A DNA stretch of 22,359 nucleotides from a virus. Below are positions 2,823 to 22,359 of the stretch, one piece after another (the first letter of the stretch is position 1; the number at the start of each line of letters is the position of its first letter). The stretch is taken from IMG/VR virus record IMGVR_UViG_3300043172_000322, positions 1 to 22,359 of that record; one strand, given 5' to 3'. Position numbers and translations under genes: made by a program. The notes under the pieces are model-generated. The model saw only the letters and a list, made by a program, of their open reading frames with translations, was not told where the DNA came from and did not search any database.

Positions 2823-2851
2823 ATTATATGTTTTATTTCAACAGATTGCAA
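2823..2851 (-). promoter_or_regulatory. Sigma70-type promoter A (copy 1 of 3)
   Basis: Reads TTGCAA - 17 bases - TATAAT on the minus strand (-35 at 2851-2846, -10 at 2828-2823). The -10 is a perfect consensus with optimal spacing. Conserved flanks AACTTGCAATC and AAAACATATAATA are shared with copies at about 14954 and 20908. Predicted transcription starts near 2816, about 40 bases ahead of the ssDNA-binding protein ATG. The surrounding intergenic DNA is strikingly A/T-rich compared with the genes. Confidence 0.87.
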
Positions 2852-9356: not shown

Positions 9357-9952
9357 TTGATGTTCTCCTCTGTGTAGCCAGCACGGAGGTGAAGGTCATC
9401 GAGTTCCTCCTGTCCCATTATATCCATGACGCTCTCGATCTCCCAGAATGACACGGGCGAGAAGTTCCAGCAGTCCACACCAATGTCCATTTCCTTACGG
9501 TCCTGACGAGAGGGCAGCGTGCCGTGGCTGTGACCATACAGGTGCCACGATCCCCGGAAGCTGTGGTTCCACACCCGCATCGCGTAGTGGCACATGATGA
9601 TACGCTGATCGACACCGTGTGCGGTGACCATCACCTCGGCCATGTCATGCACGGCAGTGAAGAACTCAAGCGTGCGGCGGTGGTCGTGGTTCCCTTGGAT
9701 CAGGATGACGTTCCCGTTCAGCCGAGCCAGGGTGCGCTTCACAAAGTTCACGCCACCCCTGTAGCCGAAGTCACCGAGGTGGAACACTGTCTGATCTGGG
9801 CGCACTGCGCGGTTCCACCTCTCAACCATCACCTCGGTCATGTGATCGGCATCCTTGAAGGGACGCTCACAGAACCTGATGATGTTCTCATGACCGAAGT
9901 GTTGGTCAGCCGTGAACATCACATCGTCCGCTGCCATACTATATTTCTGCAT
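9353..9952 (-). CDS. Calcineurin-like metallophosphoesterase (199 aa)
   Basis: All metal-ligand motifs are present: ADQHFGHENI (D16, H18), HLGDFG (D61), QGNHDHR (88-90), MCHYAM (H122) and YGHSHG (H141, H143). This matches a compact phosphoesterase family common in phages and bacteria whose substrate is unsettled. The ATG at 9952 shares a base with the previous stop (TGATG) and has GGGAG six bases upstream; the ATG at 9958 abuts the SD. It lies one tiny gene downstream of RtcB, so a role in trimming RNA or DNA ends, such as cyclic or 3' phosphates, is possible but unproven. Confidence 0.9.
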   Translation of the reverse strand: MQKYSMAADDVMFTADQHFGHENIIRFCERPFKDADHMTEVMVERWNRAVRPDQTVFHLGDFGYRGGVNFVKRTLARLNGNVILIQGNHDHRRTLEFFTAVHDMAEVMVTAHGVDQRIIMCHYAMRVWNHSFRGSWHLYGHSHGTLPSRQDRKEMDIGVDCWNFSPVSFWEIESVMDIMGQEELDDLHLRAGYTEENIK

Positions 9953-10101
9953 CAGCATCTCCCATCTTCACGGCTCATGCGCTGGTACTTACCGCACCTA
10001 TCGCAGTACCGTTCCTGTACGATTGCCTTCTCGTCCTTACCGACGATACCCACCACAGTAGCTTTGCTCCACTTGCCCCACTTATGTCTCCAGAAACACA
10101 T
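9952..10101 (-). CDS. Tiny CFW-type zinc-finger protein (49 aa)
   Basis: Begins MCFWRHKWGKWSKATVV and ends with QERYCDRCGKYQR. Cys 2, His 6 and the C33-x2-C36 pair could bind one zinc. The same layout (CFW-x-H-x-W-x2-W-S, then Q-x-R-x-C-x2-C-x-K) occurs in the 44-residue product at 17974-18108, so the two are paralogues. The ATG has AGGGG 5-6 bases upstream; the gene starts just after the RtcB stop and its own stop shares a base with the phosphoesterase ATG. It occupies a gap that would otherwise be non-coding. Confidence 0.78.
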   Translation of the reverse strand: MCFWRHKWGKWSKATVVGIVGKDEKAIVQERYCDRCGKYQRMSREDGRC

Positions 10102-10103
10102 AG

Positions 10104-11354
10104 TTACCCCTTGATGTTGATGAGTTGTTGTAGCGTGTGCTTGATGGACACCAGATCACTCTGCGCTGCCATCACCGCATCAATGTCCTTGTAGCAGGCG
10201 GGTGTCTCGTCAATCACATCCTTATCCTTCCTGCATGTGATGCCCTCTGTTGCCTTGACGTGATCCTCTACCGTGAACCGTCGCTTGGCTTCCGACCTAG
10301 ACATGACACGGCCCGCTCCATGAGAACAAGAGTTAAAACTATCAGCATTACCACGCCCCTCAACAATATAGCTACGAGCCCCCATAGAACCAGGGATGAT
10401 GCCCAGATCCCCAATACGAGCACGCACAGCACCTTTTCGAGTAACGAATACGTTCTTTCCAAAGTGATTCTCCTTCTCCACGTAGTTGTGGTGGCAGTTG
10501 ATCGCTGTCTCCGTGTTACCGGAGTCACCGTCGGTGCCCCAATCATCCCGTCGTCCAACCGCTGTGTACAGGGCGATAAGTGTCTGCTCCAGCATGATGT
10601 TGCGGCTGTTGAATGCGTAATGCTGCGCCCACCCTACAGCCTCGACGTAATCATCATGGTACTCTGTCCCTTCTGGCAGGTACGCCAGATCCTTGTTGGG
10701 CAGGTTGCTCATCCACTTCTCGCACTCACCCTGAGCCAGCTTGATGAAGTGGGTGCCGATGCGGTTGCCGATACCCCGTGACCCTGAGTGAAGCATGACC
10801 CACACCTCATCGTTCTCATCCTGGCACACCTCAATGAAGTGGTTGCCTCCACCCAGCGTCCCGAGTTGGTACAGCGGGTCACCGAACTGTCGGATGCGTG
10901 GGTACTTGTCTGCGATCTTGTTGAACGTGTGGCCCATTGCACCGGTCCATATCTGGCACGCTATGTTGGGGATATGATCCTGCCATCGCCCCTTGTCGCC
11001 GAGCCCACCCCTGTCTGTTCTGCCGTGAGGCACGGCCTTCATGATGGCCTCGTAGATTGCATCACGGTGCTCGTACACCTCATCCAGCTTGATGCCGGGG
11101 ACACGCTGCGCCACCATGCCACACCCAATGTCCACACCCACCGCAGCGGGGATGATGGCCTTGCTGGTAGCGATGACGGTGCCCACCGTGGAGCCCATGC
11201 CCCAGTGTGCGTCGGGCATCACAGCGAGGTGCTTGTGGATGAAGGGGAGCTGCGCGCACTCTCGTAGCTGCTGTTCAGCCTTGATGTCTAGCTCCACGCC
11301 ATCCACCCATGCCTTCACCGGCACCGCTTGCTTCTTACCTGTCAGTACTCGCAT
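10104..11354 (-). CDS. rtcB: RtcB-family RNA 3'-phosphate ligase
   Basis: A 416-residue GTP- and Mn-dependent ligase that joins RNA 2',3'-cyclic phosphate or 3'-phosphate ends to 5'-OH ends. Visible motifs: AVMPDAHWGMG (44-54), VGVDIGCGM (D75, C78), GGGNHFIEV (H172), LHSGSRGIGN (H189), and CSHGAGR with H345, the expected guanylylated histidine. The length fits the compact phage and bacterial forms. The ATG at 11354 has GGAGG seven bases upstream and overlaps the preceding small gene by 20 bp. In phages RtcB may repair tRNAs cut by host defence nucleases. It occurs here together with an Rnl2-like ligase of different end chemistry. Confidence 0.96.
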   Translation of the reverse strand: MRVLTGKKQAVPVKAWVDGVELDIKAEQQLRECAQLPFIHKHLAVMPDAHWGMGSTVGTVIATSKAIIPAAVGVDIGCGMVAQRVPGIKLDEVYEHRDAIYEAIMKAVPHGRTDRGGLGDKGRWQDHIPNIACQIWTGAMGHTFNKIADKYPRIRQFGDPLYQLGTLGGGNHFIEVCQDENDEVWVMLHSGSRGIGNRIGTHFIKLAQGECEKWMSNLPNKDLAYLPEGTEYHDDYVEAVGWAQHYAFNSRNIMLEQTLIALYTAVGRRDDWGTDGDSGNTETAINCHHNYVEKENHFGKNVFVTRKGAVRARIGDLGIIPGSMGARSYIVEGRGNADSFNSCSHGAGRVMSRSEAKRRFTVEDHVKATEGITCRKDKDVIDETPACYKDIDAVMAAQSDLVSIKHTLQQLINIKG

Positions 11355-11816: not shown

Positions 11817-12644
11817 GATCTCTTCGTATGTGTGGTCGTCCGGTTGGCCCGTGATGTAGATGCTGCGTGCTGCTATGCCAACCTTCTTCAGTTGTCGTTC
11901 AGCCTTCTGCGAGTTCGCTCCCTCGTCCCACAAGAACGTGACTCGCTTGACCCTGGAGTGAACCAGCATGTCCACTTGCCGAGGGCTAAGGTACGATCCA
12001 AAGTTAGTGGTCACTCCTAGGTCACGTAACCACATGGAAACAAAGGTGTTTTCCACGAAGGTGATTTCTTCCCACAGTTTGCACTCGCTCCACCCGAGGA
12101 TGAAGTTCGTGATCGCGACACCCGATGCGTACTTGTAACGCAGTGCGTCAGGATCTATGTCACTGAACCACTTGTGACAATGCGTGTTCTTGTTCACTCG
12201 TCGTGAGTTGTACTGCACCAGCTTCCCATCCTCCATGATGGGCACGATGACGTGCGTCTTGTTGGTGTGTATGTCCCACTTCCGAATCATGTCCCACGTC
12301 ACACCCCGTGTAGATAGCACCCACGCCTCCTCACTGCCCTCTTCGATCTTCGCTGCCTTAGGAGGCAGCGTCACCTCAACCACCTTCCGTTCCTGCTTCT
12401 CCATCCCAGGTACGTACCCTGCCAACTCAGGTGGGTACCCCACGATGTTGATCGTCTGCTCAAGGTTGAGCGTACAGTGGCACCCCGCCCGGTGACAGTA
12501 CCCGAGCACCTTCTTGATGTTGAAGTAGAAACTCTCATGCCCACACGTAGGGCACGGGAACTTCAGCTCATTCCCTTGGCGGTGCTCTACCTCAAACGCA
12601 CCGAGCATCCACTGAAGGATGTCAGCCTTGGTGTATTCGTACAT
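11799..12644 (-). CDS. DnaG/gp4-type primase (zinc-ribbon plus divergent TOPRIM)
   Basis: 281 residues. The N terminus has a CHC2-like zinc site: FPCPTCGHESFYFN (C31, C34) and GYCHRAGCHC (C50, C55 or C57), a module that reads the template trinucleotide in DnaG and T7 gp4. The C-terminal half fits a TOPRIM core: ITFVENTF (E198, where the usual motif is EG) and VTFLWDEGANS (D240, where DxD is usual). Expected product: RNA primers for lagging-strand synthesis with the DnaB-type helicase encoded upstream. It lacks a fused helicase domain, as in T4 gp61 rather than T7 gp4. The TOPRIM motifs are degenerate, so catalytic competence is uncertain. The ATG at 12644 has GGAG nine bases upstream. Confidence 0.8.
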   Translation of the reverse strand: MYEYTKADILQWMLGAFEVEHRQGNELKFPCPTCGHESFYFNIKKVLGYCHRAGCHCTLNLEQTINIVGYPPELAGYVPGMEKQERKVVEVTLPPKAAKIEEGSEEAWVLSTRGVTWDMIRKWDIHTNKTHVIVPIMEDGKLVQYNSRRVNKNTHCHKWFSDIDPDALRYKYASGVAITNFILGWSECKLWEEITFVENTFVSMWLRDLGVTTNFGSYLSPRQVDMLVHSRVKRVTFLWDEGANSQKAERQLKKVGIAARSIYITGQPDDHTYEEIKELLK

Positions 12645-12771
12645 GATAAGTATCTCCGCAAGTTTCGCACCGCCAGTGGTGCAGGAAGCGCTTCCTCGTC
12701 CAAGCGTTCTGGCTTATCGTTATGAGCTGCGCGCCTCCCTTGTGGCGTGCTCGCCATTTCCTGAAGGTCAT
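12622..12771 (-). CDS. Tiny basic zinc-finger protein (49 aa)
   Basis: Begins MTFRKWRARHKGGAQLI and ends with HHWRCETCGDTYHVRIHQG. The CETCG knuckle with nearby histidines suggests one zinc site, and the N-terminal half is very basic, suggesting nucleic-acid contact. The ATG at 12771 is used because GGAGG lies five bases upstream. A longer frame to 12813 has no ribosome site and would overrun the preceding gene. It overlaps the primase start by 23 bp. Confidence 0.68.
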   Translation of the reverse strand: MTFRKWRARHKGGAQLITISQNAWTRKRFLHHWRCETCGDTYHVRIHQG

Positions 12772-12875
12772 TGCAGCCTCCTGAATGCGTATGTGAAGCA
12801 CCGCTTGCACCACCTACTCTTGGTGTAGTAGATGTGGTACTCATGGTGCACCAGCCTGCACTTCCTGACCGTCAT
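12768..12875 (-). CDS. Tiny zinc-knuckle protein (35 aa)
   Basis: Contains KCRLVHHEYHIYY followed by RWCKRC: a C-x4-HH ... C-x2-C layout similar to DUF1660-type phage proteins. It is strongly basic. The ATG forms an ATGA with the stop of a short hydrophobic frame upstream, with a G-rich SD four bases away. Its stop overlaps the ATG of the next tiny gene, so it sits in a continuous chain of coupled frames. Confidence 0.6.
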   Translation of the reverse strand: MTVRKCRLVHHEYHIYYTKSRWCKRCFTYAFRRLQ

Positions 12876-12949
12876 CGTGCCCCCGCTATCCCTATGATCG
12901 CCAGCCACATGCCCACGTACACCACCGCTGTGATGGCTACGATAATCAA
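12872..12949 (-). CDS. Possible 25-aa hydrophobic peptide
   Basis: A frame opening at a TTG that overlaps the upstream stop (TTTTGA) encodes LIIVAITAVVYVGMWLAIIG and a short basic end, a near-perfect single membrane helix. It fills the only space between two coupled genes and ends in an ATGA overlap with the next. There is no ATG and only a weak ribosome site, so it could be spurious. A GTG a few codons in is another possible start. Confidence 0.35.
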   Translation of the reverse strand: MIIVAITAVVYVGMWLAIIGIAGAR

Positions 12950-13155
12950 AACGGTACGTCCGCTGATGGTCGTTGTCGCGTCGGCTCCTCCAGCTTGGCG
13001 ATCAGTAGGTCAGCCAGTTCGATAGCCTCACTCACCGCATCCCCTACCTTCTGCTCCCTGTCGCCATGCTCCATCTTGATCTGTATGAACTTCAGCGCCG
13101 CCTCGAATCTCTGCTGACGAAGCTGCAATTCCTCTGCGAGTTCCCAGTCGTTCAT
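12946..13155 (-). CDS. Small coiled-coil-like protein, unknown (69 aa)
   Basis: Mostly one long charged helix region (MNDWELAEELQLRQQRFEAA, then IKMEHGDREQKVGDAVSEAI) and a short flexible, proline-containing end. It has no cysteines and no membrane segment. No family is recognised; the pattern could support oligomerisation. The ATG follows the FmdB-like stop directly (TGAATG), with GGAGG seven bases upstream inside the previous gene's last codons. Confidence 0.72.
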   Translation of the reverse strand: MNDWELAEELQLRQQRFEAALKFIQIKMEHGDREQKVGDAVSEAIELADLLIAKLEEPTRQRPSADVPF

Positions 13156-13398
13156 TCAGCTACCTCCCTTCGGTGTCCAACCACCACCCTTCAGTACAAA
13201 CGTACAACCAGCGATGAGCCTGCGGCACGGGGCCATGCACTTCGTGAACTTACCCGGCTTCCCATAGCCTGCGATGCCCTCAAGTTCCTCCTGATTGATG
13301 AGGGTCATGAACTGACACTCAGTCAGAACGTCATCCTTGATGCCCTGGATGACCTCGATCTCATGGCCCTCATCACACGCGTAGAGATACGTCGGCAT
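13156..13398 (-). CDS. FmdB-like zinc-ribbon protein (80 aa)
   Basis: The N terminus MPTYLYACDEGHEIEVIQGI and the C terminus RRLIAGCTFVLKGGGW match the FmdB family frame (MPTYEYxCxxCGHEFE ... GxGFxxKGxGWY). The usual first CxxC is reduced to a single Cys (ACDEGH), and an insert of about 25 residues separates LTEC from KCMAPC, so the zinc site is rearranged. FmdB proteins are small and of uncertain regulatory role. The ATG at 13398 (TAATG overlap) has GGGAG five bases upstream, supplied by the last Trp-Glu-Arg codons of the preceding gene. A longer frame to 13470 lacks support. Confidence 0.78.
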   Translation of the reverse strand: MPTYLYACDEGHEIEVIQGIKDDVLTECQFMTLINQEELEGIAGYGKPGKFTKCMAPCRRLIAGCTFVLKGGGWTPKGGS

Positions 13399-13664
13399 TA
13401 TCGCTCCCACGCCATCAGTTTGAGGAACCCTAGTACCCGAGAGGGCACAGGCGCCGCGCATCCCGTACACTCTCTGTCACCCGCCCAACAGTAGTGCCAC
13501 CCGCGTGGCAGGTCACAGTACATATCGTCTGACTTAAGCGGGTTGTCGCAGTGGTGCTGGATCATGCTTCCCGAAGCATCACCCGGGTCTTTTATGATCC
13601 TGAAGTCGTTGTCCTGAATCAGAACCTCGTACTCCTCACCCACGTCACAGTCAACATCACGCAT
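13398..13664 (-). CDS. WER-tail zinc-ribbon paralogue a (88 aa)
   Basis: Cysteine-rich: C6 (MRDVDC), QHHC, DMYC, WHYC, then RECTGCAAPVPSRVLGFLKL and MAWER at the end. The final CxxC-x4-P-x3-[LI]-x5-L-x-x-WER module recurs in five other small genes of this window. Probably a structural zinc protein; function unknown. The ATG at 13664 (TGATG overlap) is preferred over a TTG one codon earlier. The last codons TGG GAG CGA supply the SD of the FmdB-like gene. Confidence 0.75.
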   Translation of the reverse strand: MRDVDCDVGEEYEVLIQDNDFRIIKDPGDASGSMIQHHCDNPLKSDDMYCDLPRGWHYCWAGDRECTGCAAPVPSRVLGFLKLMAWER

Positions 13665-13990
13665 CAATTGGGCACCTTCCCCGGCCTGTAGTTGAGTCCA
13701 TCTCGCACCCTAGCCTGCTCCACCCGCTGTCTCTCGGCCTCACGGTATGCCTCGTTCAGACAATCAGGGGGTGCAGCCTCGTCGCCACCTGGGAACTCGT
13801 ACACCGTTGCCTTCTCATCCGGGTCCAGATCATTCTCCATGCCCTCGTACATGCACCGAGGCCGACGGCCTGCGGCGTTGTGTCTCTGGGCGAAGGTGCG
13901 CCACACGAGGTCAAGGCTGGCCTGCTCCTCACGCCACGGCTCCACCACCTTGAGTGCCCATCGCTTGAAGTCCTGCCATAGATACCTCAT
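13664..13990 (-). CDS. Unknown protein, 108 aa
   Basis: The N-terminal part is helical and basic (MRYLWQDFKRWALKVVEPWR, then RTFAQRHNAAGRRPRCMYEG). The middle is acidic (MENDLDPDEKATVYEFPGGD) and the end is a charged helix (NEAYREAERQRVEQARVR). No family is recognised and no membrane segment is visible. It is coupled on both sides: an ATGA with the membrane-protein gene upstream and a TGATG with paralogue a downstream. Confidence 0.72.
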   Translation of the reverse strand: MRYLWQDFKRWALKVVEPWREEQASLDLVWRTFAQRHNAAGRRPRCMYEGMENDLDPDEKATVYEFPGGDEAAPPDCLNEAYREAERQRVEQARVRDGLNYRPGKVPN

Positions 13991-14202
13991 TTGCGGCGGT
14001 GCTGGGGCATGCCGAACTTCAGCTCACTGTAGTTGAAGTCCTTGCACATCCCCTTGTGAGCGAACCACCCGACACCCAGTATGAACGTACCAATCGCCGC
14101 ATCTACCAGCACGGGGGCGAAGCACCACAGCCAGCCAAGGCTGAGGAACCCAAACGCCTTGGCCGTTACCAAGACCAGTGCTACCATTGTACAGAATCCC
14201 AT
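13987..14202 (-). CDS. Small two-helix membrane protein (71 aa)
   Basis: Two hydrophobic segments (about residues 3-24 and 26-47), the second starting near WLWCFAPVLVDAAIGTFI, followed by a basic hydrophilic tail. This is the common phage small-membrane-protein pattern with a W-x-W-x-x-x-P turn; function unknown. The ATG at 14202 is used because AAAGGAG lies five bases upstream and the ATG overlaps the previous stop (TAATG). A 10-codon extension to 14232 runs through the preceding gene. Confidence 0.75.
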   Translation of the reverse strand: MGFCTMVALVLVTAKAFGFLSLGWLWCFAPVLVDAAIGTFILGVGWFAHKGMCKDFNYSELKFGMPQHRRK

Positions 14203-14309
14203 TACTTCTCCTTTGTTGAATACGATGCCCATCGCTTCATGTTCTCACGTTCTAGATAAGCGATGGTCGCCGCCATCAAAATCAATGCAGTTGCTAGGAA
14301 CCACCCCAT
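14202..14309 (-). CDS. Tiny membrane peptide (35 aa)
   Basis: MGWFLATALILMAATIAYLE forms a single N-terminal membrane helix followed by a basic tail. AAGGAG lies five bases ahead of the ATG, one of the best ribosome sites in the window. Its last codons contain the SD of the next gene and its stop shares a base with that ATG. Function unknown; small membrane peptides of this sort are frequent in early phage regions. Confidence 0.72.
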   Translation of the reverse strand: MGWFLATALILMAATIAYLERENMKRWASYSTKEK

Positions 14310-14318
14310 TGTTTCTCC

Positions 14319-14597
14319 TTAAAGTTGATACATCTTGTGGATGAACCAGACCGAGTCGGAGCACCGGGCCTTACACTTCCAGCACACCCGATCGGTCACG
14401 TCGTATTCCATTACTCCTGAGTCACCTACCACATCCTCACCGGGCTCCTTCGGGTGCCTGTGGTAAAGGATGTTTGCGTCCACGGCCCAGTTACCTATGT
14501 AAATGGAGTCGCCGGGATCATTCGGGCACGGGACCACGTACTGTCCCGCTGAGCTACAGATGGTAGGGGTCTGAGGTGCCTTGACGCCTTTCAACAT
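14319..14597 (-). CDS. WER-family zinc-ribbon paralogue b (92 aa)
   Basis: Has ICSSAGQ and VVPCPNDPGD in the N-terminal half and ends with VCWKCKARCSDSVWFIHKMY plus QL. The final CxxC and the helix after it align with the other zinc-ribbon paralogues here, although the Pro and WER are missing. Likely zinc-binding; function unknown. The ATG at 14597 has AGGAGG four bases upstream; an in-frame extension to 14726 runs through the hairpin and lacks a ribosome site. It is the first well-supported gene after promoter B. Confidence 0.75.
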   Translation of the reverse strand: MLKGVKAPQTPTICSSAGQYVVPCPNDPGDSIYIGNWAVDANILYHRHPKEPGEDVVGDSGVMEYDVTDRVCWKCKARCSDSVWFIHKMYQL

Positions 14598-14616
14598 GAC
14601 GCCTCCTGAAATGAGT

Positions 14617-14657
14617 AGCCCCCTCGCCCCTGATTTAACAGGTGTGACGAGGGGGCT
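14617..14657 (-). terminator. Strong leader hairpin (attenuator or terminator candidate)
   Basis: AGCCCCCTCG pairs perfectly with CGAGGGGGCT, enclosing a second small stem CCTG/CAGG with loop TTAAAT. The stem of 10 plus 4 bp is highly stable. It is followed by ACTCATTTC and then AGGAGG, not a U-run, so a classical terminator is uncertain. A leader control element or a transcript-end processing site fits as well. Confidence 0.55.
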
Positions 14658-14837
14658 GGATGCTCTAGCTCTACAGTAGTACTGAAAGAACCAAGAGCTG
14701 AAATGAAACTCTTCTGAGAGATCCAACGGATCGAGTAGCTATTCAGAATGTATGAGTTCATTGTCATTTATTATTACTACTTATGTTTTGACCGTATTAG
14801 TGTTGGGGTCTTCGAGTTTACGGCTTTTCAGAGGTTA

Positions 14838-14891
14838 TCATTCTCTGGGTAAGCGGGTGCCTCTAGCACGTCTAACCCTTGCTACGTTCAT
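14838..14891 (-). CDS. Arg-rich 17-aa leader peptide candidate
   Basis: ATG at 14891 with GGAGG five bases upstream, a textbook ribosome site about 60 bases after promoter B's -10. The frame encodes MNVARVRRARGTRLPRE and stops at TGA followed at once by TAA. Six of 17 residues are Arg, four of them encoded by AGA or AGG. Its place at the front of a long structured leader suggests translation-dependent control of the downstream genes. It could also be an ordinary unneeded short ORF. Confidence 0.5.
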   Translation of the reverse strand: MNVARVRRARGTRLPRE

Positions 14892-14953
14892 TTGATCCTC
14901 CCTCTGTCGAGGTGTATGGTATGGAGATTGAATGACTTCGTTCTCCCTGCTCT

Positions 14954-14982
14954 ATTATATGTTTTCTTTTCAGAGATTGCAA
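14954..14982 (-). promoter_or_regulatory. Sigma70-type promoter B (copy 2 of 3)
   Basis: TTGCAA (14982-14977), 17 bases, TATAAT (14959-14954), with the same flanks as copies A and C. The -35 lies just past the helicase stop codon at 14986. It would drive the leader and the genes from 14597 leftward. Over 33 bases it differs from copy A at four positions and from copy C at about four, all in the spacer. Confidence 0.87.
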
Positions 14983-14985
14983 GTT

Positions 14986-16395
14986 TCAACTCGCTGCCTT
15001 CCTCTTTTGTGCTGCTACCTGCTTCTCTCGCGGCGTCTTAGCCGTGCTGTCGGCCACCTCAGGTACGCTAGTGCTGTCGTAAGTCTCCGTTTCGTATATC
15101 TTATTGGTGATCGACATCTTACTGAGGTCACATTCTAGCATTACCGGCTTAAAAGATCGCCGGGAGTGCCTCTGTTTGAGGGATGAGAACTCCATTGCGA
15201 TCTTGTCCTCCCCAATCTCCTGCTGGGTCATCCCGATCACGACCGTCGCCTCTTGCAGATGCTTGGTCGAAGCCTGTGCCATCTCCAGTCCCATCTTGGC
15301 ACCCTTCACCATGCCCGAGCGGTTGGTCTGCGCTGCTGTCCACACCAGAATGTTGTGCCGCTTGGCGAACCGGGACAGGTCACGGCTGATCGCACCCAGC
15401 CAGTTCCATTCTTTATCCCGCGCGAACCCCGCATCACAAGGCTTCATCCTTTCCATGAAGTCGAGGATCAGTACGTCAGGCTTCCACCCAATCAGGTTGA
15501 CCCACTTCATCATCTCTGATTCGATGTCGTCAACGCTCACCTCCCTGTTGATCTCCGTGATCCTGATGCGATCATGCAGGCCAGCCTTCCAGTGCCGCTC
15601 CAGCCCCTTGTACGCCACGCCTGGGTCGTTGATGACCTCAGTCAGGTCAGTACCAGTGATGCGGCAGAGCAACCGTTCTGTTTCTTCCTCGATGGTCAGC
15701 TCATTGGTCACGATCCACACCCTCGCCTGCTCTAGCTCAGCCATCTTGTGAGCCATCACGATCAGGACACTTGACTTGCCTGCGCCTGTCGGGGCCATGA
15801 CGATCCCGAGCTGCTTCGTCCGCAGCCCACCACCTGACCAGTCGTCAACCACCGTGATGCCCGTAGGTATCCGGGTCACCTCGGGCGTGAAGCCTGCGGT
15901 TTGGACGAGGTTCTCGACAGCCTGTCTCAAGTCCATCGTCCTATCCTGTCCCACGTCACCATGCCTGTTGAAGAAGGTGTGCAGGGACTTGAGTACGCTG
16001 CTGCCCTTGAGGTTAGCCTGCTTCTTCAGGAACGTCTGGTCGTTCGCTAGTTCTTGGAAGTCACGCACCACTCCCGTGTCCCGTGCCTGATCCAGTGTGT
16101 ATAGGATGGTGGACCGATCCGGTATCTCTACCGTGATGCTGTCCAGTGCGTCCTTGTACCTCAGGTTGTACGCTTCCTCGTCCTTGTCCTTGAACACCCT
16201 GTGCAGGGTGGAGATGGATGGTTGCTCCCCGTGTGTTCTGGTGAACGCATACAGCTCAGCCAGGATGGGGATGTACTCTGTCTTGTGCAACCAGTCCGGT
16301 TTGAACGTGGTTGCAAACTTGCGTGCGTCCTCTGGTCGTGAGGACAGGGCGTATAGAAACGCCGCTTCGTCGAAACTACTACTGCTACTACTCAT
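14986..16395 (-). CDS. DnaB/gp41-family replicative DNA helicase
   Basis: 469 residues. The N-terminal 170 are helical, as in the DnaB primase-interaction domain. The RecA-like motor follows: Walker A APTGAGKSS (201-209), a catalytic-glutamate segment TNELT (E232), Walker B VLILDF (308-313), motif H3 WTAAQTNRSG (Q356) and the closing FSSLKQRHSRR basic finger. This is a hexameric 5'-3' helicase unwinding the fork in partnership with the primase. The length fits T4 gp41 (475 aa). The ATG at 16395 has AAGGAGG four bases upstream, overlapping the stop of the preceding gene. Residues 2-7 are a run of six serines. Its terminal 30 residues are Lys-rich. Confidence 0.94.
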   Translation of the reverse strand: MSSSSSSFDEAAFLYALSSRPEDARKFATTFKPDWLHKTEYIPILAELYAFTRTHGEQPSISTLHRVFKDKDEEAYNLRYKDALDSITVEIPDRSTILYTLDQARDTGVVRDFQELANDQTFLKKQANLKGSSVLKSLHTFFNRHGDVGQDRTMDLRQAVENLVQTAGFTPEVTRIPTGITVVDDWSGGGLRTKQLGIVMAPTGAGKSSVLIVMAHKMAELEQARVWIVTNELTIEEETERLLCRITGTDLTEVINDPGVAYKGLERHWKAGLHDRIRITEINREVSVDDIESEMMKWVNLIGWKPDVLILDFMERMKPCDAGFARDKEWNWLGAISRDLSRFAKRHNILVWTAAQTNRSGMVKGAKMGLEMAQASTKHLQEATVVIGMTQQEIGEDKIAMEFSSLKQRHSRRSFKPVMLECDLSKMSITNKIYETETYDSTSVPEVADSTAKTPREKQVAAQKRKAAS

Positions 16396-16404
16396 GCTTC
16401 CTCC

Positions 16405-16683
16405 TTACCATGACAGCAACATCGCTATCATCTTAATTCCTTCGGGTATCTCGGTACCACACGCCTCGCAAGCCTCCGTACACCATGCCACAGGGTCCGC
16501 GTCCACATCGAACGCAGTCCTCCAGTTTGGCTCGCAGAGATGGTAGCGTGTGTCTTTGTACGTACCTTTGTTGTTCCTTGGGGTTGGAAAGAACCAGTCA
16601 CCTACGACTTGCCAGTTCGCGTTGTCAGCTCCTCTTGTTATGACCCATTCTCTCCATTCCTCGTAGGTTTGTTTGTGATCCAC
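16405..16683 (-). CDS. Zinc-ribbon paralogue c (92 aa)
   Basis: Shares with the gene just upstream (paralogue d) QTYEEW near the start, a central Y-H-x-C, and the tail CxxCGxE-[IV]-PEGIKMI. Here the tail reads CEACGTEIPEGIKMI and ends LLSW. The two genes are clearly tandem duplicates that have diverged. Likely one zinc site from C50 and the C-terminal cysteines. A GTG start (TAGTG overlap) is used because no ATG is available before QTYEEW; its ribosome site is weak. The stop codon lies inside the helicase SD. Confidence 0.78.
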   Translation of the reverse strand: MDHKQTYEEWREWVITRGADNANWQVVGDWFFPTPRNNKGTYKDTRYHLCEPNWRTAFDVDADPVAWCTEACEACGTEIPEGIKMIAMLLSW

Positions 16684-16982
16684 TACAGTTTTGCCAGTAG
16701 TATTATCATCTTAATCCCTTCGGGTACCTCGGCTCCGCATATGAGACATCCTCCTTCCATCTTAGCAACAGACGCATCATACCCACCCTCAAGTTTGAAC
16801 AGCCGGTCGTAGTTCCCTCGGCACACGTGGTAGACATTATCACTCAGGGAGAAACCCTGGTTCACCCTACCAGGGTACAGCCAGTGGTCAACCGCGATCC
16901 ACGATGAGTCCGGTCCCTTCCACATGGTGAGCATCTCTTCCTCCCATTCTTCATATGTCTGCTGTTCCACCGCCACACCCAT
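16683..16982 (-). CDS. Zinc-ribbon paralogue d (99 aa)
   Basis: Begins MGVAVEQQTYEEWEEEM, has W-rich strands (SSWIAVDHWLYPGRV), then YHVCRGNYDRLF and a tail GGCLICGAEVPEGIKMI ending LAKL. C54 with C79 and C82 could bind zinc. Tandem duplicate of the gene at 16405. The ATG at 16982 shares a base with the RNA ligase stop (TGATG). The upstream extension of the frame to 17084 is the antisense-like overlap with the ligase gene and was dropped. Function unknown. Confidence 0.78.
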   Translation of the reverse strand: MGVAVEQQTYEEWEEEMLTMWKGPDSSWIAVDHWLYPGRVNQGFSLSDNVYHVCRGNYDRLFKLEGGYDASVAKMEGGCLICGAEVPEGIKMIILLAKL

Positions 16983-17977
16983 CAGAATAGATCCGCTGCG
17001 TACTTCTTGGTCTGCTGGATGCTGTGCTGCCGCAGCCGCTTGAAGTCCACGGTCGGGAACTTGTACTTCTTCAGTACCATCCATAGCTCCTCATCCACTA
17101 GGTCATGGAACACGGTGCCGAGCAGCCGGGGGATCAGCTTAGCCCGGTGCCTCTCCTGTACCCGTCGCTCCCTACCTTCATCCTTCCAGATGCCAGACGC
17201 TTCCTTCCCTTCCCGTACATCCTGCTCCGTCAGCTCACACACGATCTTGGACCGCACCTTCTCTACCAAGAACTGAGTCACGAACTCCTCAGCAATAGCA
17301 GCCTCCACTTGGAACTCACCACCCTTCTCCAAGGTACCGAAGGCCCGCTTGTTCTCTTCCTTGAACTCGTTGCGTACTATCTTAGCCCAAGGCTGGTTGC
17401 CACTGGTGCTCTGCCATGCGTAGTTCTTCAGCACGATACCCTCGCCTGCCCCTGCCCCATCAAGGATGAGGTACGAGTTCTGCTCCACCTCATACTGGAG
17501 CTGCTTGTCGCTTGGGTTGGTGAAGATGCACAACGGCTCAATCACGTCCAGCCCTGCTGCCCTGATGGTGGGCTCGTACTTGTCGTAGTGCAGGTAACAA
17601 CCCTTCGCGTTATCATACACATCGAAGACGTAGAACCTACGCCATGCCTCCTGCCGGTACGTCTTGAGGGTGTGAGGCACCAGCCACTCACCGTAGATAG
17701 TCCAGCTCGCACCGCCACTGGACATGATCTCATAGAACCTCTCCTGTGTGTCTGGTTCGTGCGCCCACTGCCAGAACCCAGCGTTGTCTGCCTCAGCATC
17801 CAGCGTGCGGGAGCGAGAGCCACACTCTATGGTTGGAGCGAGGCCATCCTCTGATTCAAACCACACGCTGGCGTTGGTACCATCCAGCTTGGGGAACACG
17901 TACACATCCCCAATGGTGATGCCCTCTACCTTCTCATGTCCTATTCTCTCTACGTGGTCGTACCTACGGAAGCTCAT
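16982..17977 (-). CDS. Rnl2-like RNA ligase
   Basis: 331 residues with nucleotidyltransferase motifs in order: motif I FPKLDGTN (K30 is the adenylated lysine), CGSRSRTLD (Arg near 55-57), motif III-region IYGEWL (E97), RRFYVFDVY, motif IV GEGIVLKNY (E179) and motif V WAKIV (K199). The C-terminal 110 residues form a separate helical domain. The family seals 3'-OH/5'-phosphate RNA ends, as T4 Rnl2 does. The sequence also resembles DNA-ligase-type KxDG motifs, but the Gly-Thr-Asn after motif I favours the Rnl2 group. The ATG at 17977 (ATGA overlap with the tiny zinc gene) has GGAG eight bases upstream. Confidence 0.82.
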   Translation of the reverse strand: MSFRRYDHVERIGHEKVEGITIGDVYVFPKLDGTNASVWFESEDGLAPTIECGSRSRTLDAEADNAGFWQWAHEPDTQERFYEIMSSGGASWTIYGEWLVPHTLKTYRQEAWRRFYVFDVYDNAKGCYLHYDKYEPTIRAAGLDVIEPLCIFTNPSDKQLQYEVEQNSYLILDGAGAGEGIVLKNYAWQSTSGNQPWAKIVRNEFKEENKRAFGTLEKGGEFQVEAAIAEEFVTQFLVEKVRSKIVCELTEQDVREGKEASGIWKDEGRERRVQERHRAKLIPRLLGTVFHDLVDEELWMVLKKYKFPTVDFKRLRQHSIQQTKKYAADLF

Positions 17978-18108
17978 ACAACTCTCTCCTCTATCTTGTT
18001 GCACTCGCTGCATGTCCTCTTCTGCATCTCCCAGACCCCACCTCCCCTTATGGGTGTCTGGTAGATGTTACTCCAGTTTGACCAATCGTGTCCCCAAAAG
18101 CAGCTCAT
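17974..18108 (-). CDS. Tiny CFW-type zinc-finger protein (44 aa)
   Basis: Begins MSCFWGHDWSNWSNIYQTPI and ends QKRTCSECNKIEERVV. The order CFW-x-H-x-W-x2-W-S ... Q-x-R-x-C-x2-C-x-K matches the product at 9952-10101. ATGA overlaps join it to the DNA ligase upstream and the RNA ligase downstream, and AGGAGG lies seven bases from its ATG. In each case the tiny gene is in direct contact with a ligase gene, which is notable. Confidence 0.82.
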   Translation of the reverse strand: MSCFWGHDWSNWSNIYQTPIRGGGVWEMQKRTCSECNKIEERVV

Positions 18109-19109
18109 GACATATCCTCCTTGGATCTGAACCCCAAGAACACCGGGAACCGGGGCTTCGCCTTCGCCCCGGAAGGCCAGTGCTTGTACTTGATGATGTG
18201 CCCAACGTAGACCTGACGGTCACGCCAGAACGCCTTGCGCTGTTCGTCCGAGTATCCACTGCCACACTCAAACTCGATGTTGGTCTTGAGGTCACGGCAC
18301 ATGAACTTACCTAGCTTACCAGCCGGGATCTTCCCAGCCTTGGCACTCGACCGCTGTGTCCTACCAAGGGCATTCTTCACGGCCTTGTTGGTGTTGGTCA
18401 TCAGCTCTTCGAAGCCAATGATCTCAGCCTCGTCATCCTGAGACACCTTGAGCTTGGCCATCATCCCTCTGGTTGAGCGCCCGAACTTGTACCCACCTTC
18501 GGGGTCACGGAAGATGGCACCCTCATAGTTCTCATCCGTACACTTCTTCCAGAATGCCATCAACCCACCGGAGTTGTAGCATTCCTCCGGTAGCACCAGG
18601 GTCACCCACTCAGGGCGTGGAGCCTTGAGGCGTTCCTTCATCACCTCCATCCTCTGCCGATACGTCAGCTCCTTGTCCCACACATCGAACACCTTGTACT
18701 CAAAGTCAGGCGTCCCTTCGATCCGCATGATGGGACCAGACACCTCACCAAACGTGGTGGCACCCTTGATCCACAGCTCACCATCCAATCCCTCCATGCC
18801 CCATGTCTCCAGCATGTACCTGATGTGGTTGTTCGGGATCTTCTTGAGGCTGCGGGACATGGGTGTCCCACCCGCCACGGTCAGGCACCTGATGCCATCA
18901 ATCTTGGGCGTAGCCAGGACAGGGAACTTCACCTTGTGAATTTCCTTGCATGTCTCAGCCAGCATGGGCTTCAGTTGTCCATTCAATCTCTGCACCCCAC
19001 TATCCTTGGCCTGCTTCTTCACGTCAAATACCGGCTGCACCGTGCGGCCCGGTCCGAAGTGCCTCGCTCCCATACCTCTCTTCTGTCTGTCTTTCGGTCC
19101 TTTGCTCAT
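18105..19109 (-). CDS. ATP-dependent DNA ligase
   Basis: 334 residues, compact like the T7 enzyme (359). Motif I TPKIDGIR (K69), motif Ia SRSLKKIPN, motif III LDGELWI (108-114), motif IIIa VFDVWD, motif IV YEGAIFR (near 195-201) and motif V MMAKLKV (near 217-223) are all present. A C-terminal OB-like segment ends VYVGHIIKYKHW ... FLGFRSKED. It would seal nicks and Okazaki fragments. The second of two adjacent ATGs is used because GAGG is then six bases upstream. Its 5' end overlaps the previous small frame by 86 bases, the longest overlap seen here. Confidence 0.93.
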   Translation of the reverse strand: MSKGPKDRQKRGMGARHFGPGRTVQPVFDVKKQAKDSGVQRLNGQLKPMLAETCKEIHKVKFPVLATPKIDGIRCLTVAGGTPMSRSLKKIPNNHIRYMLETWGMEGLDGELWIKGATTFGEVSGPIMRIEGTPDFEYKVFDVWDKELTYRQRMEVMKERLKAPRPEWVTLVLPEECYNSGGLMAFWKKCTDENYEGAIFRDPEGGYKFGRSTRGMMAKLKVSQDDEAEIIGFEELMTNTNKAVKNALGRTQRSSAKAGKIPAGKLGKFMCRDLKTNIEFECGSGYSDEQRKAFWRDRQVYVGHIIKYKHWPSGAKAKPRFPVFLGFRSKEDMS

Positions 19110-19218
19110 CATTCACCTCTTTCCATTTTGCCTTCTTGCTCATCGTCTTCGGCGCACCCATCATGAACCAGTTCGTTTTGCTGTTCAGCCAGTGTATGTC
19201 GAAGTCTACGTGGCTCAT
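19024..19218 (-). CDS. Small basic protein overlapping the ligase start (64 aa)
   Basis: Begins MSHVDFDIHWLNSKTNWFMM, then a very basic and charged stretch (MSKKAKWKEVNDEQRTERQT). The ATG forms an ATGA with the upstream gene's stop, which favours real translation, though no clear ribosome site is visible. The frame runs 86 bases into the ligase gene; the overlapping half has ligase-antagonistic low-complexity composition, so only the first 35 residues may matter. No family is recognised. Confidence 0.5.
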   Translation of the reverse strand: MSHVDFDIHWLNSKTNWFMMGAPKTMSKKAKWKEVNDEQRTERQTEERYGSEALRTGPHGAAGI

Positions 19219-19946
19219 GCGTCAACCACGAAGCCCGACGTGTCATGCTTGGCTCTCCCTCTGGCAAGCAGGCCCACGACACAGCCCTTCTTGTCCATGA
19301 ACCTGAAGTCATGCTCGATCCCAGAGATCACATCGACACCCTGGAACACAGCGGGTATCTCTGATCTGAACACCACAGCTACGTTGATCCCTTGGTTGGT
19401 GAACTTCCTGACCAACCCCGGTGCGGTGTACTCATGATAGCTGTACGTCAGGTCGTAGTTCGGTGGCAGCTTGCCAGCGATCCAGTTGCGTACCCGCTGC
19501 TCACCCTTGGTGTAATCATAGAACCTCGTATTGGTGAAGGCATCCATCGGGATGTAGTTCTCCCAAGGTACGTCACTCGTACCATTCAGCCGAGCCACAG
19601 GGTAGAGGCCCTTGGAGAGCGCCCGCTTCTCCAACAGAACCAACTCTTCGGTCAGCCTGTCTGCGTACCCCTGTCGATCATTGAAGAACTCCATCGTCTT
19701 GGTGATGCGTGACCGATGGATCATGTACATCTCAAGGTTCTTGGTGGTCAAGTCACCGCTGATCTGGCTGCGCCCTGCTGTGTTGAGGCACGTTGCCCTA
19801 CACCCAGGGGTTGACCACGCACACACCGTATGCACCCCGTCAGCCAGGGTGTCCGGTGTCATGTGGTGGATCACAGCCTCGTATCCGAACTCTTCCAACA
19901 ACTTCGCTGTCTTTGGATTCGTAGATGCGTTAGACAGTAGTGTCAT
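19215..19946 (-). CDS. DUF7227/gp88-like phage protein
   Basis: 243 residues. The block VCAWSTPGCRATCLNTAGRS places three cysteines as C42-x6-C49-x3-C53, followed by a helical region with RITKTMEFFNDRQGY and then YPVARLNGTSDVPWENY. This combination of STPGCRxxCLNTAGR with R-L-N-G-T-S-D is familiar from a phage-specific family (DUF7227, related to mycobacteriophage gp88). Function unknown; the three cysteines suggest a metal or cluster site. The middle part has an alpha/beta barrel-like alternation of strands. The ATG at 19946 has GGAGA four to five bases upstream. It ends in an ATGA overlap. The family name is from memory and should be treated with care. Confidence 0.75.
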   Translation of the reverse strand: MTLLSNASTNPKTAKLLEEFGYEAVIHHMTPDTLADGVHTVCAWSTPGCRATCLNTAGRSQISGDLTTKNLEMYMIHRSRITKTMEFFNDRQGYADRLTEELVLLEKRALSKGLYPVARLNGTSDVPWENYIPMDAFTNTRFYDYTKGEQRVRNWIAGKLPPNYDLTYSYHEYTAPGLVRKFTNQGINVAVVFRSEIPAVFQGVDVISGIEHDFRFMDKKGCVVGLLARGRAKHDTSGFVVDA

Positions 19947-19955
19947 GCGTTCTCC

Positions 19956-20186
19956 TTATCTCTCCCACTCTATCAGTTTAATCATGCCCATCATTTCTGA
20001 TGGTGGTGCCTTACTACACTGCCCACATGAGCGGTGTCTATCTACTAGGTTGGCATTGACGGATACCATACCACACGATCCATCACCCTGCCATGAGCTA
20101 CACCCCGTGTGCGAGATGTAGTAGTATCTGGCTGAGTACCCTTTGGATACCCACAACCTCCACCCACCATCATTAAGCAGCGTCAT
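19956..20186 (-). CDS. WER-tail zinc-ribbon paralogue e (76 aa)
   Basis: Contains TGCSSWQGDGSCGM, then RSCGQCSKAPPSEMMGMIKL and IEWER at the end. CSS-x-W-x-G-x-G also occurs in paralogue f, and the CxxC ... P ... WER tail in a and f. The last 24 bases, counted back from the stop, match paralogue a at 21 positions. The first part (MTLLNDGGWRLWVSKGYSAR) is Trp/Tyr-rich. The ATG at 20186 has GGAGAGAGC directly upstream. The TAA stop abuts the SD of the next gene. Confidence 0.78.
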   Translation of the reverse strand: MTLLNDGGWRLWVSKGYSARYYYISHTGCSSWQGDGSCGMVSVNANLVDRHRSCGQCSKAPPSEMMGMIKLIEWER

Positions 20187-20194
20187 GCTCTCTC

Positions 20195-20440
20195 CTATCT
20201 AGCCCTGTGGTTGTTCATGAAGCTGAGCGGGATGTGTATGCAGGAAAGGAGCTGTGGGTGGCGGAGTTGCCAGTAGCAGACCACGCTGTTCTCCTTGTCC
20301 ACGTACTTCTGAATCTTATACGGGCGTTCAAGCGCATCCTCAAGGGTGGTTGGTTCCTTGGCGTTGGCGTAGTCCACGCACGTCGTTGTCACGAACGCCA
20401 GCCCGATGACCATGAGTGCTGCAAGTAGCAATAGTTTCAT
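20195..20440 (-). CDS. Small exported protein with signal peptide (81 aa)
   Basis: MKLLLLAALMVIGLAFVTTT is a clear signal sequence; ANA at 25-27 before KEP is a plausible signal peptidase I site. The mature part of about 54 residues has C55 and C67, which could pair outside the cytoplasm (NSVVCYWQLRHPQLLSC). C21 lies in the signal region but the residues before it do not form a lipobox. No family is recognised. The ATG at 20440 has GGAGG 4-5 bases upstream. Confidence 0.75.
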   Translation of the reverse strand: MKLLLLAALMVIGLAFVTTTCVDYANAKEPTTLEDALERPYKIQKYVDKENSVVCYWQLRHPQLLSCIHIPLSFMNNHRAR

Positions 20441-20448
20441 GTTACCTC

Positions 20449-20664
20449 CTAGTTTCCTTCGTAGATCCAGATGTAACCTCGCCCTGACTCGTACTCAGCC
20501 AGCTCACCACAGTTGTGGCCTTTGGCGGGTGCGTCATCATCGAAGAAGGCGTTACTCAACTCAGACGACGCACCGCTGGCCCCATGTACGGAGAATACCT
20601 CTAGCTCTCCCCCGTGCTCGGCCTCTAGCTTCTGTAGATTGTCAATGAACTGTGACAGTTTCAT
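20449..20664 (-). CDS. Small acidic phage protein, unknown (71 aa)
   Basis: MKLSQFIDNLQKLEAEHGGE followed by LEVFSVHG resembles a widespread small phage and bacterial protein type that begins with an amphipathic helix and a 'HG-x-LEV' strand; function unknown. A middle acidic loop (FFDDDAPAKG) precedes an aromatic end. The ATG overlaps the helicase stop (ATGA), with GAGG five bases upstream. It is the first gene downstream of the internal promoter C. Confidence 0.72.
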   Translation of the reverse strand: MKLSQFIDNLQKLEAEHGGELEVFSVHGASGASSELSNAFFDDDAPAKGHNCGELAEYESGRGYIWIYEGN

Positions 20665-22115
20665 GTTACCTCCTCAATATCGAAGCCCTCTTCAACCCAC
20701 ACCTCACGGCGCAGCTTGGAGTGGTGCTTCAGTATGTACCCGCTTGTGTCTTTGAAGTCGATGAGTGCGAAGGCGTGCTTGCCCTTGGCGATACGCAAGC
20801 CTCGGCCTATGCGTTGCAGCATGGTCTTACGGGACTTGCCACCACCGGCAAGTATGATCGAGCGTAGCTCGGGCAGATCCATTCCCTCATCGAATACCGT
20901 TGTAGCTATTATATGTTTTGTTTTCCCGGATTGCAAGTTTGAAATCGTCTGTGTACGTACCTCCGTAGTTGTACTGCCCTGAATGACAGGAAGGAATAGA
21001 CCCTGCTGTTTCGCTAGGTTAGCAAGGGCTGTTGCATGTGATATTCGATTCACCATCACGATTGCAGGCGTCGGAACTTTCTTCAGTTCGCTAATGATTC
21101 TGTTGTTCCTGTTGCTGTTCATTATGATGGCCGACTCGTAGCACTCGGGCCATGCCTTCGGGCCAGTCACCGGAGGCATCTTGATGATGGTGACCTTCGG
21201 CTTGGTCAGGTGCCCCGCCTTGATGAGCGTGTCGTTGTTGATCTCAAAGATTATGTCACCAGTGCAGCCCATCAAGAGCTGGTTGCTGTACTCATCCCGC
21301 ATGAACGGCGTAGCTGTCAGCCCCCACCGTAGCATGGCATGGCGGAACTGCCTGCTCAGCAGGATGAATTGGTTTCCCTTGTCCAGCTTGGCACCGCACA
21401 GGTGAGCCTCATCGAAGAATATCTGCCGTGCCTTGATGAACTGGTTGATCTTGCTCATGTCTCCTTGCTTCAGCACGTTGTGGAGTGTCTGGATCGTAGC
21501 CACAGTGATTCCCTGCGGGTCGGGATCAAACACACTATCTCCGATCTGCCCTGCGTGTATGCCATACTTCTTGAACCTATCTATTGCCTGCTTGACGAGG
21601 TGCTTGCGATGCACCACGAATACAGTTGGCATCTGGATTGTCTGGTACATGGCTACAGCCAGCTCCGTCTTGCCACCACCCGTTGCGATCTTCAGCACAC
21701 CACGGGGCCACGGCATCCCCTCAAAGGTACTACTCAGCGCAGCATCCAACGCTGCTATCTGGTAGGGCCTGAGCTGTACGCTGGTCTGCCTGTGTACTCC
21801 AGGGACAGGAGGGGCCATCACCCTCATGTCCTTGAACGTCCTGTCCCGCTTGGGTGTGAGTAGCTGTTCGTAGAGAAAGGGCAGCATCCCCGTTGGGAAC
21901 TGTGCTCCATTCATGGGGTGCGGCTTGCTGATGATGCTGGTCTTACCATCCCACCCCTTCTTCCCCTTGGTGCGGAGGTACAGCTTGTGGTTGTACATGT
22001 ACTTCGCCCCAGGTGCCATGACCTTAGCCTGCTCACGCACCACCTCAAGATCAAGGATCTCCGCTGCGTTCTCTGGCTTGACCAGACACACAGTGTTATC
22101 AAATTCAAACCTCAT
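20661..22115 (-). CDS. UvsW-like SF2 DNA/RNA helicase
   Basis: 484 residues. An N-terminal domain of about 110 residues precedes the motor: Q-LRPYQ, motif I ATGGGKTE (144-151), motif II FFDEAH (DEAH 235-238), motif III LTATP (267-270), motif V IATTVFDEGMD (403-413) and motif VI QRIGRGLR (434-441). The order and spacing match UvsW/RadD-type helicases that unwind R-loops and branched recombination intermediates and help switch from origin- to recombination-dependent replication. The ATG at 22115 (ATGA overlap) is used; the GTG nine bases before it is part of the preceding gene's Trp-Glu-Arg region. The 3' part contains promoter C. Confidence 0.92.
   Translation of the reverse strand: MRFEFDNTVCLVKPENAAEILDLEVVREQAKVMAPGAKYMYNHKLYLRTKGKKGWDGKTSIISKPHPMNGAQFPTGMLPFLYEQLLTPKRDRTFKDMRVMAPPVPGVHRQTSVQLRPYQIAALDAALSSTFEGMPWPRGVLKIATGGGKTELAVAMYQTIQMPTVFVVHRKHLVKQAIDRFKKYGIHAGQIGDSVFDPDPQGITVATIQTLHNVLKQGDMSKINQFIKARQIFFDEAHLCGAKLDKGNQFILLSRQFRHAMLRWGLTATPFMRDEYSNQLLMGCTGDIIFEINNDTLIKAGHLTKPKVTIIKMPPVTGPKAWPECYESAIIMNSNRNNRIISELKKVPTPAIVMVNRISHATALANLAKQQGLFLPVIQGSTTTEVRTQTISNLQSGKTKHIIATTVFDEGMDLPELRSIILAGGGKSRKTMLQRIGRGLRIAKGKHAFALIDFKDTSGYILKHHSKLRREVWVEEGFDIEEVT
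20908..20936 (-). promoter_or_regulatory. Sigma70-type promoter C inside the SF2 helicase gene (copy 3 of 3)
   Basis: TTGCAA (20936-20931), 17 bases, TATAAT (20913-20908), with flanks AACTTGCAATC and AAAACATATAATA as in copies A and B. It lies within codons 393-404 of the helicase, where the same bases encode NLQSGKTKHIIA just before motif V. A transcript would begin near 20901 and have a leader of about 240 bases before the next gene at 20664. Confidence 0.75.
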
Positions 22116-22359
22116 CGCTCCCACCTCAGTAGTGACATGAACCCATTGATAGCGTCCGGTGCGTCCTCAGTACAGGTGCGACACCTGTAGATAACCCTTC
22201 CGTGCCCTTCCCAATCACTAGAGCACGGGATGGTTTGGTGTAGGTTTTCATTCGCGCGTCGAACGTGTCCTGTGAATGCGTGGATGTGGTGCACATCGAA
22301 GATTACTTTGGGCTCACCACCTCCACCATTATGATAACGTCGAGTGATAAGCCACTTAT
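22112..22359 (-). CDS. WER-tail zinc-ribbon paralogue f (3' part; start beyond window)
   Basis: Contains IPCSSDWEGHGRVIYRCRTC and then TEDAPDAINGFMSL, LRWER. The CSS-x-W-x-G-x-G and CxxC ... P ... WER features match paralogues e and a. The frame stays open to the right edge, with sensible sequence upstream (WLITRRYHNGG, then a helix with FDVHHIHAF) and no ribosome site at the internal GTG (22294), so the true start probably lies outside. The W-[LV]-ITR segment also resembles the start of paralogue c. The last codons form part of the helicase ribosome site. Confidence 0.72.
   Translation of the reverse strand, partial: KWLITRRYHNGGGGEPKVIFDVHHIHAFTGHVRRANENLHQTIPCSSDWEGHGRVIYRCRTCTEDAPDAINGFMSLLRWER

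Follow-up and report, generated by a model that had tools for sequence, protein, structure and literature searches.

Are six small genes that carry a CxxC motif, scattered along the replication region of an uncultivated virus, members of a single protein family, and what could such a family do for a phage? The question is raised by the window analysed here, by which we mean the whole 22,359-base virus record IMG/VR IMGVR_UViG_3300043172_000322. Its minus strand holds a phage replication region encoding a UvsX-like recombinase, an SSB, a DNA polymerase, RtcB, a primase and a DnaB-like helicase, along with an RNA ligase, a DNA ligase and a DNA helicase. Megablast of the window against a phage collection found no similar DNA. 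As far as can be judged from sequence and predicted structure, all six belong, as paralogues, to a single undescribed multigene family found in uncultivated tailed phages, with proteins of about 60-130 aa.

The six genes and their surroundings

A preliminary description of this DNA had listed the six genes, which we call A to F (Table 1), and all of them are indeed found on the minus strand, with every quoted peptide present. Its further remarks that three of the proteins end in Trp-Glu-Arg (A, E and F), that C and D are tandem (they are adjacent and overlap by 1 nt at 16683), and that the genes alternate with replication enzymes along the operon also hold, the family members being interspersed among the replication genes. 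The starts of A, B and D were revised on the basis of ribosome-binding-site-like sequences and overlaps. That of A is most likely ATG 13664, which overlaps the preceding stop as TGATG; that of B is most likely ATG 14597 behind AGGAGG, and not TTG 14726; and that of D is most likely ATG 16982, and not 17084. An SD-like GGAGAG lies upstream of E. F runs off the end of the window; the frame stays open between 22357 and the end, so the gene may start elsewhere than at GTG 22294.

Table 1. Family members and promoter-like sites in the window
Feature	Position	Strand	Length	Anatomy or context	E value, left-out HMM
Member A	13398..13664	-	88 aa	F at the W/F-x-I strand position, QHHC pair, CTGC knuckle, C-terminal helix, WER end; iterated HMM 8.8e-19	2.9e-12
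Member B	14319..14597	-	92 aa	HRH pair, CWKC knuckle	7.8e-4
Member C	16405..16683	-	92 aa	YHLC pair, CEAC knuckle	2.1e-6
Member D	16683..16982	-	99 aa	added N-terminal helix, YHVC pair, CLIC knuckle	1.8e-5
Member E	19956..20186	-	76 aa	SHTGC pair, CGQC knuckle, WER end	1.2e-11
Member F	22112..22357	-	81 aa visible	CRTC knuckle, WER end	1.6e-7
Promoter-like TTGCAA-N17-TATAAT	2823-2851	-		copy of a 42-nt repeat (three copies in the window)	
Promoter-like TTGCAA-N17-TATAAT	14954..14982	-		42-nt repeat copy, exact match; precedes the stretch from B to A	
Promoter-like TTGCAA-N17-TATAAT	20908..20936	-		42-nt repeat copy, exact match; within the helicase gene; precedes the stretch from 20664 to E	

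Some other genes of the window's minus strand deserve mention in their own right. RtcB, the RNA ligase and the ATP-dependent DNA ligase lie together in one replication region (10104-11354, 16982-18013 and 18105-19112), a grouping that may hint at the repair of cleaved RNA. A second small family, with the pattern CF(W)xHxW ... CxxC, is represented at 9952-10101 and 17974-18108 and has copies in the related contigs L005, L006 and L008; scored with the HMM of the zinc-motif family, these genes are not members of it. Small CxxC genes of the MTFRKW and MTVRKC types, at 12622-12813 and 12768-12908, have relatives in L004, L005 and L006. Finally, the gene at 13156-13470, which has relatives in L005 and L008, starts with MPTYLYACDEGHEIE, which we take to be FmdB-like, and its second cysteine pair is degenerate.

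Evidence for one family

Pairwise phmmer comparisons connect C to D (1.5e-16) and A to E (7e-4). Related contigs were found through relatives of the DnaB helicase in IMG/VR, and their small ORFs show the same pattern again, namely W-x-[IL] ... H-x-C (or H-x-H) ... variable loop ... C-x2-C-x4-P-[DE]-x-I ... L-x2-W. Three subgroups (A/E/F-like, C/D and B) are linked by profile-profile P values of 2e-6, 7e-7 and 9.5e-5, with 7e-7 for B against the A/E/F group. An iterated HMM matched 104 of 4924 ORFs at E<1e-3, the best reversed-sequence control reaching 0.76, and 99 distinct cores entered the family alignment, where the five complete window members could be aligned across the region, as could the visible portion of F. 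We also built an HMM from 71 members, omitting the window genes together with every subfamily orthologous to one of them; it recovered all six window genes (3e-12 to 8e-4, each below 1e-3), a test that is not wholly independent, because A, E and F were the seeds of the search that first gathered the 71 members. Independent support comes from G008, a contig that contributed no sequence to the profile and yielded 33 matches.

These results modify the preliminary description in three respects. The C-terminal tail that it proposed is shared, but the homology spans the whole domain. The N-terminal parts do vary, as it said, yet they have in common the W-x-[IL] strand and the H-x-C ligand pair. The six genes are related, but the family is far from having six members, given that large related contigs carry about 30 each.

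Ligand pattern and predicted fold

Column statistics of the 99-core alignment show an aromatic residue (W/F/Y) in the first strand, histidine in 99% of the sequences at the first ligand position, and C (70%) or H (12%) at the next. Both cysteines of the CxxC are present in 100%, followed by P in 91%, then I/L/V/M and, where that column is filled, a terminal aromatic (W/F/Y). Sorted by type, the first ligand pair is HxC in 70 cores, HxxC or HxxxC in 12, HxH in 14 and something else in 3. The loop between the ligand pairs ranges from 7 to 65 residues, and loop and turn columns have an entropy of 3.3-4.1 bits; conservation is confined to the ligands and the core hydrophobic residues. The idea that the family is one enzyme was rejected, as nothing else is conserved.

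From this pattern we infer a single metal site with H/C/C/C ligands; the label "zinc ribbon" is based on the motif only. The predicted fold opens with a short beta meander, comprising the W-x-[IL] strand and a later strand that closes with H-x-C; a loop whose length differs greatly between members comes next, and the C-x2-C knuckle then leads through a proline to a hydrophobic C-terminal helix. The H/C/C/C residues would hold one zinc ion and in this way keep a tiny core folded. AlphaFold2 models of two members, A (pLDDT 83.5) and D (81.5), read strand-strand-strand-strand-helix and helix-strand-strand-strand-helix-strand-helix, respectively. The two models have the same order of core elements: HxC closes the third core strand, and CxxC precedes the last helix. 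Thus, the two predicted folds agree across the CxxC-helix region on which the preliminary description relied, and the profile searches place the six genes in one family instead of scattering them into unrelated ones.

Copy number, arrays and promoter-like sites

In some of the related contigs the family is much larger than in the window. For instance, G005 (119.6 kb) has 29 members, all at 33-78 kb and including a run of 15 at 33.5-38.8 kb; its portal, terminase and head genes lie outside the family region, and no member was detected there. G007 (49 kb) has 18 members, with a run of 11 at 35.1-38.7 kb, and G008 (119.5 kb), which comes from a different sample, has 33, those of its run largely pairing with members of G005. 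Starts within the runs mostly fall -7 to +1 nt from the preceding stop, and the majority of neighbours overlap at stop and start. Copy number also changes on a smaller scale: C/D-type copies number two in the window and in L004, one in L005 and four in L006, where the four genes are consecutive with 1-nt overlaps and A is doubled.

At the promoter end of big arrays we also observed four borderline genes (L032:3324-3659 and 3985-4350; L035:13447-13764 and 12867-13568) that have the HxC ... CxxC plan, but the family HMM gives them scores of only 0.02-2; they are possibly more divergent members.

In G005, G007 and G008 a pair of divergent, sigma-70-like TTGCAA-N17-TATAAT sites lies immediately upstream of the run. 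The window site that follows DnaB (14954..14982) is conserved at that place in L004, L005, L006 and L010, and the one within the helicase gene (20908..20936) recurs in L005 and L010. No exact match is expected in block shuffles. Exact sites recur in the related contigs, including the regions upstream of structural genes, and the site is therefore no proof of early expression.

Possible functions

We tentatively propose, with a confidence that stops a little short of even, that the family consists of non-enzymatic, metal-stabilised binding scaffolds whose paralogues have diversified for different host or phage partners, in takeover of the host or in counter-defence. Copies would arise by tandem duplication, keeping the core while altering loops and charge, and each would engage a different partner, most likely a host protein and possibly, in some cases, a phage replication protein. 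The phage would thereby express a cocktail of members from a small number of polycistronic messages. Three facts favour host targets: the family changes in copy number whereas each replication enzyme remains single, the long runs stand apart from the replication genes, and the proteins, most of them acidic, differ widely in charge. The position of the window members among replication genes counts against host binding, and a role in replication could apply to these members.

The charge of the proteins also bears on another reading, which we regard as unlikely but deserving of attention. Small zinc proteins could be nucleic-acid-binding regulators that bind DNA, RNA or RNA polymerase to govern the transcription of phage or host genes, different paralogues serving different sites. 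The zinc-type ligand set is common in proteins that bind nucleic acids and RNA polymerase, members are located in replication operons, and E and F are mildly basic, with a pI near 8.5. However, A, C and D have values near 4.6, and the median of the family is 5.6, with 57 of the 99 members lying below 6 and just 9 exceeding 8; moreover, the column statistics reveal no conserved basic patch outside the ligands, and no DNA-binding family was matched above the cut-off. The wide range of charge and the mostly acidic members argue against uniform DNA binding, and charge differences between paralogues are easier to reconcile with a variety of partners than with a single nucleic-acid surface shared by all.

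It is less probable still, and in our view quite unlikely, that the proteins are replisome accessories, each copy binding and modulating the adjacent phage replication or recombination enzyme. The alternation of window members with replication enzymes would fit such a role, as would B, a positional orthologue whose place downstream of DnaB is kept in several related phages. Nevertheless, the largest expansions are long runs made up of members only, and copy number varies where replication enzymes are single. Although we prefer diversified binding scaffolds as the explanation for the family, regulators or replisome partners remain conceivable among interspersed copies such as B.

Evolution and turnover of the copies

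Between the window and L004, dN/dS is 0.28 for B, 0.31 for D and 0.69 for E, whereas DnaB and RtcB have 0.14; fast evolution is also seen in other small genes of the neighbourhood. G005 and G008 have about 30 members each, yet they share only 18 reciprocal pairs, with dN/dS of 0.12-0.54 where it could be computed, values that indicate coding genes under constraint. Every computed pair lies below 1, so that nothing in the NG86 averages points to an arms race, which speaks against the binding-scaffold reading. In the G005/G008 pairs, identity is 51% in the inter-ligand loop and 60% in the scaffold, the pooled loop being still constrained. A tree of the family mixes cross-contig orthologues with local duplications, although most of its forks are poorly supported; L006 members cluster by contig, and those of G005 do so weakly. 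Recent explosive duplication as the sole explanation was rejected, as the tree contains orthologues shared between contigs.

The fast turnover seen in the scarcity of reciprocal pairs could mean that most copies have no specific role and undergo a mostly neutral birth and death, as selfish or near-dispensable duplicates. We consider this very unlikely in view of the dN/dS values, of ligands that are nearly invariant in 104 sequences, and of tight, overlapping, operon-like packing. Least probable of all, and hardly credible, is that the six are unrelated small proteins with a convergent CxxC-P-helix ending: CxxC motifs are common in small proteins and B, the weakest member by sequence, matches at only 7.8e-4, but the left-out HMM recovers all six, the match spans strand, HxC and helix, and the A and D models share their core order.

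It is conceivable, though we would put it forward with more doubt than confidence, that a clade of phages with contigs of ~120 kb spends very roughly 7-9% of its sequence (an estimate from about 30 genes of about 100 codons) on paralogues of one hitherto unknown metal-stabilised scaffold, as evolvable host-protein binders renewed by tandem duplication. In practical terms, dozens of unannotated small genes per phage become one recognisable family with a usable profile. Arrays whose members bound different host proteins would offer natural inhibitors as a ready-made panel, and would illustrate clearly how a phage can evolve new targets by gene duplication on one scaffold.

Searches for relatives and comparison with known systems

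The preliminary description did not recognise the family, and the libraries searched contain no description of it: there is no convincing family match in Pfam, PHROGs, NCBIfam, PADLOC, PDB or cultured phages, and no paper describing such a family was found in the open-access literature. PHROGs, Pfam, NCBIfam and PADLOC gave isolated weak matches, with no more than two members per model; A to F have no PHROG or Pfam match worth the name, and PADLOC, which models defence genes, shows no consistent match among members. Foldseek comparison of the A and D models with the PDB and with viral predicted structures returned nothing at E<=0.001. VIA-align was uninformative: for A its best Z was 3.5 (PURA), with HIT-family proteins next, and D had no match. 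Neither program listed a solved zinc ribbon, an absence that is no sign of a different fold. Profile matches in the PDB to RSC8 (0.005) and PARP1 (0.44) are local only and were not taken as homology. With tblastn, D found nothing in cultured phages, L035:9694-10008, A and the consensus found short insignificant matches only, and plasmids gave no matches; of the two hits checked, in Pseudomonas phage PaMx11 and Salmonella phage INT55, neither was matched by the family HMM. Two scans of bacterial and archaeal genome contigs detected no relative of the DnaB or of the LHNW subgroup.

Nothing in these libraries and papers matches the family, its ligand pattern or its copy number, and we rate it as a new protein family whose arrangement has precedents. 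Generic zinc ribbons (Pfam Zn_Ribbon_1, DUF2614) likewise have two ligand pairs on small beta units, and there are isolated sub-threshold matches to them, but the present family has HxC in place of the first CxxC and a C-terminal helix after the second knuckle. DksA/TraR C4-type zinc fingers (phrog_54, PF01258) are also found in small phage-encoded CxxC proteins; they require two CxxC pairs, whereas the first pair is H-x-C or H-x-H here, and 98 of the 99 members have no match, the remaining one matching phrog_54 at 0.0033 and PF01258 at 0.03, the latter short of the cut-off. The PARP-type zinc finger (PARP1 ZnF1) resembles the family in its CxxC-x4-P leading into a hydrophobic stretch and in its H/C ligands. 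In PARP1, the CxxC ligand pair comes first. The family has HxC and then CxxC, not the order CxxC-then-HxxC, the match (0.44 over about 26 residues) is not significant, and there is no Pfam PARP match.

One precedent for the arrangement comes from archaeal viruses, in which several small, functionally uncharacterised anti-CRISPR (Acr) paralogues occur in one viral genome (PMC11065993). Both cases involve multiple small paralogues per virus, although the hosts are different and no sequence link is known. An anti-defence role of the present family is hypothetical, and what sets it apart from the Acr paralogues is its metal-ligand core, together with its about 30 copies per contig.
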